Assembly: GCA_002721975.1 (NCBI GenBank) | Contig: PBME01000018.1 | Span: 1 to 53,508 of the forward strand | DNA from: Campylobacterota bacterium | Lineage (GTDB): Bacteria; Babelota; Babeliae; Babelales; Chromulinivoraceae | Length of the DNA stretch: 53,508 bases | Direction: 5' to 3' | In this document: positions 6,483-11,069 of the stretch, in pieces | How positions within the stretch are numbered: position 1 is the first letter of the stretch | Layout of the letters: each line of letters opens with the position of its first letter | Position numbers and translations under genes: made by a program | The notes under the pieces: model-generated | Told to the model about the DNA's origin: nothing | Database searches by the model: none | What the model saw: only the letters and a program-made list of their open reading frames with translations

Positions 6483-7448
6483 ATGTTTTTGTTCATGAAT
6501 GTAACACAGTTTTTTACCAATTTTTCTTCTATTGTTTCTTACAAGCATCCAGTGATATGTTTTACAGGCAAAACAGATCAACCTTTATTTTTTGAGAAAT
6601 TAAAGCAATATATTGAGCAACAAGCTGGTAATTCTTTTAAAACTATTAATATAGATAGTGATATTTCTCAGGTTCAAGGTCAGTTGTCGACGACATTTTT
6701 AGGACAAACTTCTTGGTATTGGTTAAGCAATATTGGATTAATCAGTTCAAAAAAGAAAAAAAGTGATTATCTTAATTTTATTAAAAATTATAGTGGTCCA
6801 CATCGATTATTAGTTTTTATTCCAGAATCTGATATTACAACACTGTCAAATGAGATTATGAACTATGTTATACAAGAAAATTATCAGTATGATCAAATAA
6901 AAAAAATACCAATACTATATGATGATCAAAAAACTGAAGTTTTAGCGTACTTTTATAGTAAATTATATCGTTTAAAAAAAGAGTATTCACTAGATCAATT
7001 GTGTTTGCTTAAAGAGTATGCATCACTTTTGGGTAAAAACATAAATCAATTTTTTGATACATGGATAGAACAATTAATTATATCAGATGTATCATTATTT
7101 CATTTGAGCCAATTATTTTTTGAAAAACAAAGTTCTGAGTTTTTTCGTAAATGGCAAGACATTCGTAAGTATTATGCAGATCAATTTTGGACAGCATACT
7201 TTTCAGAACAATTATTCAAAGCTAGTTTTTATATTCGATATCAAGGGCAAGTGCCAACAGATCAAAAACAATTATTATTTGGCTTGCCATTTTCATTTAT
7301 AAAACATGATTGGCAATTGTATCATGTTCGTGAATTACAAGCCGCTCATCAAAAATTATATACAATAGACTTGTCTTTAAAACGTGGTGGAAACATACAT
7401 CAATTAGATTCTTTTTGTATGTTATTTTTTAGCAATGCTTTTCATTAG
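6483..7448 (+). CDS. Possible DNA polymerase III delta subunit (HolA-like)
   Basis: A 321-residue protein with no sharp motif. The length, an N-terminal segment resembling a nucleotide-binding first strand (PVICFTGKTDQPLFFEKL), a helical middle and the C-terminal pattern VRELQAAHQKLYTIDLSLK followed by GG resemble delta subunits of the clamp loader, whose last domain ends in a similar 'L..a...l...D..lK.G' helix. In that family the protein opens the beta clamp. This is a weak family call. I start it at ATG 6483, because the upstream in-frame TTG (6438) lies before the likely transcription start. Its stop overlaps the convergent gene by 4 bases. Confidence 0.45.
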   Translation: MFLFMNVTQFFTNFSSIVSYKHPVICFTGKTDQPLFFEKLKQYIEQQAGNSFKTINIDSDISQVQGQLSTTFLGQTSWYWLSNIGLISSKKKKSDYLNFIKNYSGPHRLLVFIPESDITTLSNEIMNYVIQENYQYDQIKKIPILYDDQKTEVLAYFYSKLYRLKKEYSLDQLCLLKEYASLLGKNINQFFDTWIEQLIISDVSLFHLSQLFFEKQSSEFFRKWQDIRKYYADQFWTAYFSEQLFKASFYIRYQGQVPTDQKQLLFGLPFSFIKHDWQLYHVRELQAAHQKLYTIDLSLKRGGNIHQLDSFCMLFFSNAFH

Positions 7449-7777
7449 TTATTGGGTGGCTCATATTCTTCTGATTCGTCTTCATAGATAGTTATTTGTG
7501 ATCCATCAGGATAATATGTTATCTCTTCTCCACAAAGTGTTATAACTGTGATTGAACCATTTGTATGTTTTGTAAATCGTTTAATTGGTTCAGATCGTGA
7601 GATAAAATCATCCATGTTTTCATCTGTATCTATTTTTTTACTATAATTAGCTGTTGCGATACAAGAAGTTGTAGCATTCTTTTTTAAGAATTTCATACTT
7701 GTTTTATGTAACCATCGAGTATATGTTTCAGATGTAAAAGTTATTATACAAATTAGTGATATACATAGTTTATACAT
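7445..7777 (-). CDS. Small exported protein with a TCP10-like 'PDG' repeat
   Basis: 110 residues. The N-terminus (MYKLCISLICIITF) is a signal peptide or membrane anchor. The C-terminal third, about residues 78-103, reads SITVITLCGEEITYYPDGSQ and continues with ITIYEDES. This alternating beta-strand and 'yPDG' pattern recalls the glycine-rich repeats at the C-terminus of eukaryotic TCP10/CPAP proteins. That resemblance is my inference from one and a half repeats. The gene is last in the leftward cluster with the DUF502, glmM and cda-like genes, separated by only 2 bases from the DUF502 gene, so it is probably co-transcribed. Function unknown. Confidence 0.6.
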   Translation of the reverse strand: MYKLCISLICIITFTSETYTRWLHKTSMKFLKKNATTSCIATANYSKKIDTDENMDDFISRSEPIKRFTKHTNGSITVITLCGEEITYYPDGSQITIYEDESEEYEPPNN

Positions 7778-7779
7778 AG

Positions 7780-8415
7780 CTATTTTACATCCTGTTTTTT
7801 TACATAACGTTCTGGTTGTAAAATGCCTCCAGAAATAATAAGAGCAGTTGCTTCTTGTCGTGTTAAATCAGTTTCCATATAAGTTCCTTCAGGAACCATA
7901 ACAAAAAAACCGGTTGTTGGATTAGGAGTAGTCGGAATATAAATGTTTACGTATATTTTTTCAGTATCGGGAGCAATTTGATGTGGAACTTGGCTTGTTA
8001 AAAAACCAATACTGTAAGCACCTTTTATAGGAAATTCGATAACAACTACTTTTTTAAAACTAAGTTGATCCTGAGATGTAAAAGCGCTTACCAATTGTTT
8101 TACACCAGAATAAACTGTTCTTATTAAAGGTAATCGTGATAGTATATCTTCGACAAATTGTACAAGTGGTCTCAATATAAAAAATCTGAGTAAAGCACCG
8201 ATTAATAGAATAAAAATTATAATAAGTAAAATTTCATGATGAGGAATAGCCTCTAAAAGAGGAATGTTTAATTTACGTAAAGGTATTAACCAGCTTTTGA
8301 CAAGATTGAAAAAAAAGCTAAATAATGCAAAAGTAATCGTAATCGGTAGTAAAAATATAAGACCATTAATAAATAAAGTTTTAATATATTTACTTATAAA
8401 TTTAAATACATTCAT
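7780..8415 (-). CDS. DUF502 family integral membrane protein
   Basis: 211 residues. Two hydrophobic segments are visible, at about 13-36 (INGLIFLLPITITFALFSFF) and 60-80 (EILLIIIFILLIGALLRFFI). They are followed by the conserved family stretch RPLVQFVEDILSRLPLIRTVY and by FVMVPEGTYMETDLT near the end, with a PTTPNPTTGFF segment between. This architecture matches the DUF502 family, found widely in bacteria and of unknown biochemical role. The start ATG lies 9 bases beyond the glmM stop, so it is probably in the same leftward operon. The family call is firm; a function is not known. Confidence 0.88.
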   Translation of the reverse strand: MNVFKFISKYIKTLFINGLIFLLPITITFALFSFFFNLVKSWLIPLRKLNIPLLEAIPHHEILLIIIFILLIGALLRFFILRPLVQFVEDILSRLPLIRTVYSGVKQLVSAFTSQDQLSFKKVVVIEFPIKGAYSIGFLTSQVPHQIAPDTEKIYVNIYIPTTPNPTTGFFVMVPEGTYMETDLTRQEATALIISGGILQPERYVKKQDVK

Positions 8416-8424
8416 AAGCTTCCT

Positions 8425-9855
8425 TTATAGGTTAGTAAATTCATTTTTTATATTATCAAGTATTTGTTGAGCCTCATTAATTTCTTTATGTTCCGTCATA
8501 ATCCGTAAAACAGGCTCTGTATTTGATTTTCTTATTACAATTCTACCAGGATTGATATGGGTAGCATATTTATTTTTAATTTGATTAATAGATTCATCTG
8601 TAATAGTCGTGTTTTTAAGTGAAAGAGTAGCATGAATTTGTATGTTTTTCTTATAGCTGTGAAGATCAATGTTTTGCGTATAGATTGTATCAAAAAACAT
8701 AAGTGCTGCAAAAATACCATCGCTACATGGTGCATGATCTAGTACAGTAATATGCCCACATGCTTCAGATCCTAGAAGTGCATTATGTTCAAGCAGCTTT
8801 TCAATAATATTTCGTTCACCAACATCAGTACGGATAAATTGTTTATCTTGTTGTTCAAAATGTTTTTGAGTAACTTGATTGGTCATGATAGTACCAACAA
8901 CAGTTTTTTGATCTTTGTAACGTGGGTGTTGTGCAAGTACCATGATAATATCATCACCATCAAAAACACTTCCTTTGTCGTCTACTATGATAACACGATC
9001 TCCATCACCATCAAAAGCACAGCCCCAGTTTGCATTATGTTGATTGACTGCATCAATGAGTAATTGTGGATTGGAACATCCAGATTGTTCATTGATGTTA
9101 TTACCTGTTGGTGTGTTGTTGATAGCAACTGTGTTAATACCATATTGTTTAAATATTTGTTCAGCGATTTGATAGGTTGCGCCATTGGCACAATCAAGTA
9201 TAACTTTGAATGGTTCAAATTGTTTGTGCGTAATTGTTTGTTGCATGTCGTTGATGTAATTCTTGAGATAATCAAGTGACTTTGTTGTATAAAATAGTAT
9301 ATACCAATACCAATCAATGACATCACTTATTGTTGGAATGTGGTTTTTATAATACGTTACTGTTTCATAAAAAAATCTTGAAATATCTAATTCTTCTTGT
9401 TCTGTCAGTGGACCATTGGGAGTAAATACTTTGATCCCATTATATTCAGGAGGATTATGTGAAGCGGTGATCATAATACCTAGTTGAAAAAATGGAGTGC
9501 ATTCATTGTTATCTGTTGTTGACGCTGATCCTACAGCTTTAGCAACAAAAGGAGTAGGCACAATTCCCATATTAAATATTTGATGCTTATGATGAATAGC
9601 AAGATTTTTTTTAAATGTATTTAAGATCCATTTGCTTGATGTGCGTGTATCTGTAGCAATAAGTACATTGCATTGCATATTATAGACTCTATGTAAATAA
9701 TGGCTGATTGCGATGCTCAAAAAATGAACATTTTGTACGTCATTCAAAAAACCAGATGTATCTTTTGAAAATGAATGTTTGATTCTATGCCAAAGAGTAA
9801 CTTTGGTAGGTATTATTCCTCGAATACCACTGTTTTTAAAAATATTGTTATTCAT
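8425..9855 (-). CDS. glmM: Phosphoglucosamine mutase (phosphohexomutase family)
   Basis: 476 residues of the alpha-D-phosphohexomutase family. The phosphoserine loop TASHNP has its serine at residue 132, the metal-binding loop DGDGDR is at 282-287, the sugar-specificity loop GSEACGH at 362-368 and the phosphate-binding loop RKSNTEP at 442-448. Phosphoglucosamine mutase makes glucosamine-1-phosphate for UDP-GlcNAc and so for peptidoglycan and lipid A. I prefer GlmM to phosphomannomutase/phosphoglucomutase because of the DVGERN...GSEACGHITVLDH region and because it follows cdaA-like and cdaR-like genes, the order known from Firmicutes. The specificity loop has Cys where GlmM usually has Ser, so substrate remains uncertain. 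Confidence 0.72.
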   Translation of the reverse strand: MNNNIFKNSGIRGIIPTKVTLWHRIKHSFSKDTSGFLNDVQNVHFLSIAISHYLHRVYNMQCNVLIATDTRTSSKWILNTFKKNLAIHHKHQIFNMGIVPTPFVAKAVGSASTTDNNECTPFFQLGIMITASHNPPEYNGIKVFTPNGPLTEQEELDISRFFYETVTYYKNHIPTISDVIDWYWYILFYTTKSLDYLKNYINDMQQTITHKQFEPFKVILDCANGATYQIAEQIFKQYGINTVAINNTPTGNNINEQSGCSNPQLLIDAVNQHNANWGCAFDGDGDRVIIVDDKGSVFDGDDIIMVLAQHPRYKDQKTVVGTIMTNQVTQKHFEQQDKQFIRTDVGERNIIEKLLEHNALLGSEACGHITVLDHAPCSDGIFAALMFFDTIYTQNIDLHSYKKNIQIHATLSLKNTTITDESINQIKNKYATHINPGRIVIRKSNTEPVLRIMTEHKEINEAQQILDNIKNEFTNL

Positions 9856-10231
9856 GTTTTTTAGTAATTTTGATAGTTATATATGATGGTTTTAAGTTTA
9901 TCAAATTTATATTATCTGGTAAAAAAAGATTTTCTCGTGATAATGCAATTTCATTGCTGCCTTGTCTAAATTGCGAAGCGTCTAGATGAATTGCATTATT
10001 GGCATTATCAAAGTGATACATATTTGTTCTTGTGCCCGAGACTGTAACTTCAATTTTTTCTGCTGCGTTAATTATGAAATCTTGCTGTAGGTTATAAAAG
10101 TATACAGGAATTGTTTGGGTAGTTTTTATTTGTTGGTTCTGAGCCATAAATGCCCATATGCTATAGCCGATAATACATGAAATAATGCGAATAAAATTAT
10201 GATGCAGAAGAATGCTTTTGCTTTTGATCAT
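9848..10231 (-). CDS. YbbR-like domain membrane protein (CdaR-like)
   Basis: 127 residues from the ATG at 10231. One transmembrane segment at about 13-31 (IRIISCIIGYSIWAFMA) precedes a single extracytoplasmic beta-rich domain with the YbbR pattern: IPVYFYNL, then IEVTVSGTRTNM, HLDASQFRQGSNEI and a closing PSYITIKI. CdaR proteins of Firmicutes carry several such domains and regulate CdaA; here there is only one. It overlaps the upstream cda-like gene by 35 bases and the downstream glmM gene by 8, so the three are tightly coupled. An earlier in-frame ATG at 10276 would lengthen the overlap to 80 bases and is less likely. Confidence 0.72.
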   Translation of the reverse strand: MIKSKSILLHHNFIRIISCIIGYSIWAFMAQNQQIKTTQTIPVYFYNLQQDFIINAAEKIEVTVSGTRTNMYHFDNANNAIHLDASQFRQGSNEIALSRENLFLPDNINLINLKPSYITIKITKKHE

Positions 10232-11069
10232 CAGGATTCCTTTTTTGAATGATAGAAGTATTTGTTGCAACATCATAAAGAGTTTTTTCAGTAAAGTTTA
10301 ATAATTGTTGCACAGATACTTGTTTTAAACACTTTCCTCCATACCATACAGTATGCGTATCAGATATTGTATCAATTGAAAATATTAAAGTATCAGTTTT
10401 TTGTGTCATAATGAGGGCTGCCTCATGGTTTAAAGTTGTTGTATCTTTTGGCTCTATGAGCATTTCATTAATGATAAGATCATTCCATTTTGCATTAATA
10501 CTTTGAATGAGACCTGAATGATGAACCCACAATAGAGTATTGTTTTGTACATCTTGGCTCGTTAATAAAAGATTTATTATATCTTTTTGAACAGGTAGCT
10601 GTAACATGTATTTTGTTTGTAATAAAGCAGAAAGATTATAATTTTTTTCAATAATACAAAAAATATTTTTTTGTTTATGAGATGCTTGTAAACATGATTG
10701 AACAAGGCTTGCAAGCCAATTTTTTTCTGGAATTGTGGTAGGAGTAAAATATTTTTTTGAAGGAAGAACGAAATTTTTTTGTAATTGTTTTTGGTGTGCT
10801 ATAATGCAAAAGACGATATAAACAGGCCCAAAGTATAACAAAGTAGAAAATAAAATTGAACATGAGCTAAAATATGTAATTGTTATCAAGCTGAAGTATG
10901 TATAAAAAGTAAAAAGAAGCTGTTGGGTATTGTCTTGTTTTAGCCATGATAGAAATTTATAAGTAATAAGTATAAAAAAAATTATTTCAAAGTAATCTTG
11001 AATAAGATAAAGTCCTAATAGTTCAGCTCCAAATTCTTTAATGTGTGTTAGTAACTGTTCATAAAGCAT
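10197..11069 (-). CDS. CdaA-like diadenylate cyclase homologue with lost catalytic motifs
   Basis: 290 residues with the CdaA layout: hydrophobic segments at about 25-42, 50-68 and 72-92, then a cytoplasmic DAC-like domain. VYIVFCII followed by the QKQLQ linker matches the end of the CdaA membrane part. The domain aligns by position with CdaA (INLLLT...GLI; HEAALIMTQKTDTLIFSI), but the DGA motif is replaced by N177-T178-L179 and RHR by N214-H215-E216. Both motifs are needed for c-di-AMP synthesis in characterised enzymes, so I infer that it is inactive. AGGAG lies 8 bases before the ATG. It is first in a leftward operon with the YbbR-like gene and glmM. Confidence 0.7.
   Translation of the reverse strand: MLYEQLLTHIKEFGAELLGLYLIQDYFEIIFFILITYKFLSWLKQDNTQQLLFTFYTYFSLITITYFSSCSILFSTLLYFGPVYIVFCIIAHQKQLQKNFVLPSKKYFTPTTIPEKNWLASLVQSCLQASHKQKNIFCIIEKNYNLSALLQTKYMLQLPVQKDIINLLLTSQDVQNNTLLWVHHSGLIQSINAKWNDLIINEMLIEPKDTTTLNHEAALIMTQKTDTLIFSIDTISDTHTVWYGGKCLKQVSVQQLLNFTEKTLYDVATNTSIIQKRNPDDQKQKHSSAS

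Follow-up and report, generated by a model that had tools for sequence, protein, structure and literature searches.

Diadenylate cyclases of the CdaA/DacA family, described in Firmicutes and also in Borrelia and Leptospira, combine three N-terminal transmembrane (TM) helices (CdaA_N) with a cytosolic DAC fold. They carry the signature motifs GALI, DGA, RHR and SEE and a juxtamembrane FQPEL-like motif, and are encoded in the order cdaA-ybbR-glmM. Their CdaR/YbbR regulators have a YbbR fold behind an N-terminal TM helix, and the gene lies directly downstream of cdaA and overlaps it. Two-hybrid work on Firmicutes, as cited in PMC6368335, places YbbR on the TM region of CdaA and GlmM on its catalytic domain, and in the solved B. 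subtilis complex R126 of CdaA and D151, E154 and D195 of GlmM are contact residues (PMC8573169). The demonstrated direction of control is inhibition of CdaA by GlmM (PMC8573169, PMC6368335), the reverse of the regulation of GlmM by CdaA that the first-pass annotation of the present locus had stated. The function of YbbR is unsettled even in Firmicutes, and work on S. aureus did not reveal a clear regulatory effect of YbbR on DacA (PMC6368335). Conversion of cyclic-dinucleotide enzymes into non-catalytic regulators is known from degenerate GGDEF/EAL proteins such as FimX and LapD, several of which still bind nucleotide (PMC7288161). In the literature searched we found neither a degenerate diadenylate cyclase nor a paper joining Dependentiae and c-di-AMP.

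The window, that is, the whole stretch of 53,508 nucleotides analyzed here, contains a CdaA-like gene (pseudo-cdaA) followed by ybbR and glmM, in the same order as in CdaA/DacA loci (Table 1). The overlap of pseudo-cdaA with ybbR is 35 nt from the likely ybbR start and 80 nt from the start of the longest open reading frame, and ybbR overlaps glmM by 8 nt. The arrangement with tight overlaps noticed at first reading is thus real, and this order recurs throughout the phylum, most loci having pseudo-cdaA, ybbR, glmM and the DUF502 gene in a single cluster.

Table 1. Coordinates of the pseudo-cdaA cluster and of its former catalytic sites in the window
Feature	Coordinates	Strand	Remarks
Pseudo-CdaA	10197..11069	-	290 aa; three TM helices and a degenerate DAC domain; no internal stops
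Codons 177-179 (NTL)	10533..10541	-	former DGA site
Codons 214-216 (NHE)	10422..10430	-	former RHR site
YbbR/CdaR-like protein	9848..10231	-	single TM helix plus one YbbR domain; ATG at 10231 is the likely start, AAGGA ahead; longest ORF from 10276
Pseudo-cdaA/ybbR overlap	10197..10231	-	35 nt
GlmM, phosphoglucosamine mutase	8425..9855	-	ASHNP and DGDGD motifs intact
DUF502 membrane protein	7780..8415	-	regular fourth cluster member
Small ORF	7445-7777	-	110 aa; 3' of DUF502; sole match a weak Tcp10_C

As a single query, pseudo-CdaA retrieved no DAC domain in Pfam, NCBIfam or PDB searches, and homology was therefore tested via its relatives. A profile of 36 relatives from the same family and order, built with known cyclases excluded, matches solved diadenylate cyclases, the best match being a CdaA-type protein (E=3.9e-14) whose alignment spans both TM region and DAC domain. 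Among these 36 members, Pfam detects weak PF02457 (DAC) in eight and weak PF19293 (CdaA_N) in six. The AlphaFold2 model (mean pLDDT 85) consists of three membrane helices and an alpha/beta domain, and its best Foldseek matches in PDB are CdaA and DacM, with a TM-score of about 0.7-0.78 (on target). The CdaA-like membrane layout and DAC domain proposed in the first-pass annotation are therefore upheld: the protein is a genuine CdaA homologue over its full length, and its juxtamembrane HQxxLQ motif resembles the FQPEL-like motif of CdaA/DacA.

In contrast to CdaA/DacA, the catalytic signatures have disappeared throughout the Dependentiae group. The profile and joint alignments place NTL on the DGA column and NHE on the RHR column, exactly as first proposed, and by alignment no true DGA or RHR lies elsewhere in the protein. 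Neither string occurs in any of the 66 full-length homologues, and GALI and SEE are likewise gone from them, so that four signature motifs are lost. Residue by residue (numbering of B. subtilis CdaA, with whose sequence the solved chains agree at these motifs), few or no copies keep G129, A130 or E223, the positions of D171, R203, H204, S222 and E223 are variable or replaced, R203 most often by Trp, and the fold residues I134 and E135 (IE), A207 and D215 (TD) are still present.

These homologues come from a survey of 101 genomes of a single order in the phylum Candidatus Dependentiae/Babeliales, a group of parasitic bacteria. Pseudo-CdaA is encoded in 67 of the genomes; a match in G069 (60 aa, two stops) was attributed to chance and is left out of this count. 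A contig search with a profile of six close relatives returned five loci, four of them from Dependentiae/Babeliales; a scan with glmM gave no match. No genome of the 101 has a DAC domain above the cut-off, all PF02457 matches in the relatives falling below it. Nor does any of the 101 have PstA, the c-di-AMP riboswitch, PgpH or the GdpP-type GGDEF domain above the cut-off, with one short PgpH match below it; the components covered by this search are DAC, PgpH/GdpP, PstA and the riboswitch. Unlike the organisms with CdaA/DacA, the phylum thus seems to have left c-di-AMP signalling. Given the presence of the gene in 67 of 101 genomes, the lack of DGA and RHR in every full-length copy and the lack of any genome with a DAC match above the cut-off, we judge from the sequences that c-di-AMP synthesis by pseudo-CdaA was lost in Dependentiae long ago.

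The gene has nevertheless remained functional, even with rapid divergence of its products (mean column identity 33%). Where measurable, pairwise dN/dS values span 0.08-0.27, within the range of ybbR and glmM, and pseudo-CdaA is under purifying selection. Invariant or near-invariant residues are E28, W42, L43, D46, P82, H92, Q97, W118, I140, E141, G186 and D226. Conservation is strongest in TM1, TM3 and the juxtamembrane helix (E28, W42, L43, P82, H92, Q97) and at D226; the former catalytic positions are variable in the family alignment. Loss of the four motifs, purifying selection and the negative search for c-di-AMP machinery together make it well supported, as far as sequences can tell, that cyclase activity has been lost and a non-catalytic role retained. 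That part of the initial proposal appears sound, whereas its extension to regulation of GlmM is not supported by the comparison given below.

The firm partner of pseudo-CdaA, inseparable from it, is YbbR and not GlmM. The ybbR product has a Pfam YbbR match just below the cut-off (E=7e-4), its profile matches YbbR structures, YbbR is the top Foldseek hit, and the YbbR fold behind an N-terminal TM helix is confirmed. As for CdaR/YbbR regulators, the gene is directly downstream and overlapping; the differences are that a single YbbR domain is present and that the protein is kept though its partner is no cyclase. Of the 101 genomes, YbbR and pseudo-CdaA occur in exactly the same 67. Elsewhere in the family the two genes mostly overlap by 44-53 nt, and 63 of 64 loci share one frame relation. 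Mapped on a GlmM+DUF502 tree, presence of the pair switches about four times: in a clade of 22 genomes, in G032+G040, in G086 and in G081 (a genome 82% complete). The deep branches of this tree are weakly supported and it has no outgroup, so the 22-genome clade could reflect loss or original absence; loss is favoured, because the gene order is common with Firmicutes. Relative branch rates of pseudo-CdaA correlate with those of YbbR on terminal branches (partial rho 0.72, against 0.14 for GlmM) and on all branches (0.48 against 0.30). However, the rates of glmM and DUF502, which are not known to interact, are correlated as well (0.58), and such covariation is therefore not specific.

The explanation that we favour, and regard as probable, is that a catalytically dead CdaA has been retained as the partner of YbbR in membrane and cytosol, with a role in the envelope that does not involve c-di-AMP. 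The single TM helix of YbbR would be held by the three TM helices of pseudo-CdaA and its juxtamembrane HQxxLQKNF helix, with the YbbR domain outside the inner membrane and the degenerate DAC domain serving as a cytosolic protein-protein surface. Such a pair may, with no c-di-AMP being made, report or shape the state of the envelope on behalf of a client in the cytosol, GlmM being at most an optional one. A physical complex in the membrane is suggested by the most strictly kept part of the protein, which includes the region expected, by analogy with Firmicutes, to hold YbbR. On the other hand, neighbouring overlapping genes can vanish together in one deletion, the rate covariation of the pair is of the non-specific kind noted above, the conserved W118, I140-E141, G186 and D226 indicate that the soluble domain matters as well, and the S. 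aureus result cited above also counts against this reading.

We consider it unlikely that pseudo-CdaA instead recruits GlmM to the membrane and adjusts the synthesis of peptidoglycan precursors, despite the position of glmM after ybbR in most loci and the CdaA-GlmM complexes known in Firmicutes (PMC8573169). Ten genomes, several of them more than 90% complete, retain pseudo-CdaA and YbbR without a true glmM, and 26 retain glmM without the pair (Fisher p=0.29 for association of pseudo-CdaA with glmM, not significant, the counts ignoring phylogeny); glmM loss corresponds to five changes on the tree. Selection persists even where glmM is missing (dN/dS 0.13 for the glmM-less genomes G020 and G099), and rates on terminal branches do not co-vary with GlmM. 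Nor are the contact residues kept: the R126 position of CdaA is Arg in only 3 of 66 copies, and D151, E154 and D195 are not conserved in these GlmMs, with no difference by presence of pseudo-CdaA. A nearby position in the same alpha-beta turn, K134, is Lys in 45 of 66, and through it a shifted GlmM contact is possible.

Retention of the DAC fold with its IE and TD residues could also mean that the domain still binds ATP, AMP or a host-derived cyclic dinucleotide and acts as a sensor, the other option raised by the first-pass annotation. This is improbable, since the former pocket positions (D171, R203, H204, S222, E223) are variable or replaced and GALI is gone, and the sequences show no conserved pocket in its place; FimX and LapD, for their part, have another fold and another messenger. 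That the protein is still a cyclase, making c-di-AMP or a related product at a different active site, is hardly credible with all known catalytic residues gone and the known hydrolases and receptors searched for not found in the phylum. Nor do we give much weight to a decaying, functionless remnant held in place by its overlap with ybbR, a fate that genome reduction in these parasites and the fast divergence of the protein might suggest: the reading frame is open across the whole phylum, dN/dS is about 0.1-0.2, residues are invariant and the fold is retained, and selection has already largely refuted it.

A phylum in which the CdaA-YbbR pair has naturally parted from catalysis gives an opening for studying the function of YbbR, and is also a warning that fold or gene order alone is insufficient to call c-di-AMP synthesis. 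We tentatively raise a broader possibility, that YbbR-CdaA might at heart be a c-di-AMP-independent envelope complex, from which this phylum dropped the nucleotide and kept the membrane pair. If so, YbbR would have a function, involving a pseudo-DAC relay in the cytosol, which is elsewhere hidden behind c-di-AMP synthesis.

Some minor observations concern the genes around the pair. In the ten glmM-less genomes (G012, G034, G020, G046, G047, G062, G063, G076, G090 and G099; loci L092, L103, L097, L110, L111, L123, L124, L127, L136 and L145, respectively), glmM is absent between ybbR and DUF502 and elsewhere, a phosphomannomutase-like paralogue is the only related gene, and murG is present; the paralogue may therefore have taken over the GlmM step. 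At the 26 loci of the pair-less genomes (L149-L174), glmM and usually DUF502 remain, which, together with the rate covariation of the two, hints at an envelope role of DUF502 linked to GlmM. Finally, pseudo-CdaA, YbbR, glmM and murG are all absent from G051 (1.1 Mb, one contig), which may be a wall-less member of the group, as reported for Babela massiliensis (PMC4378268).
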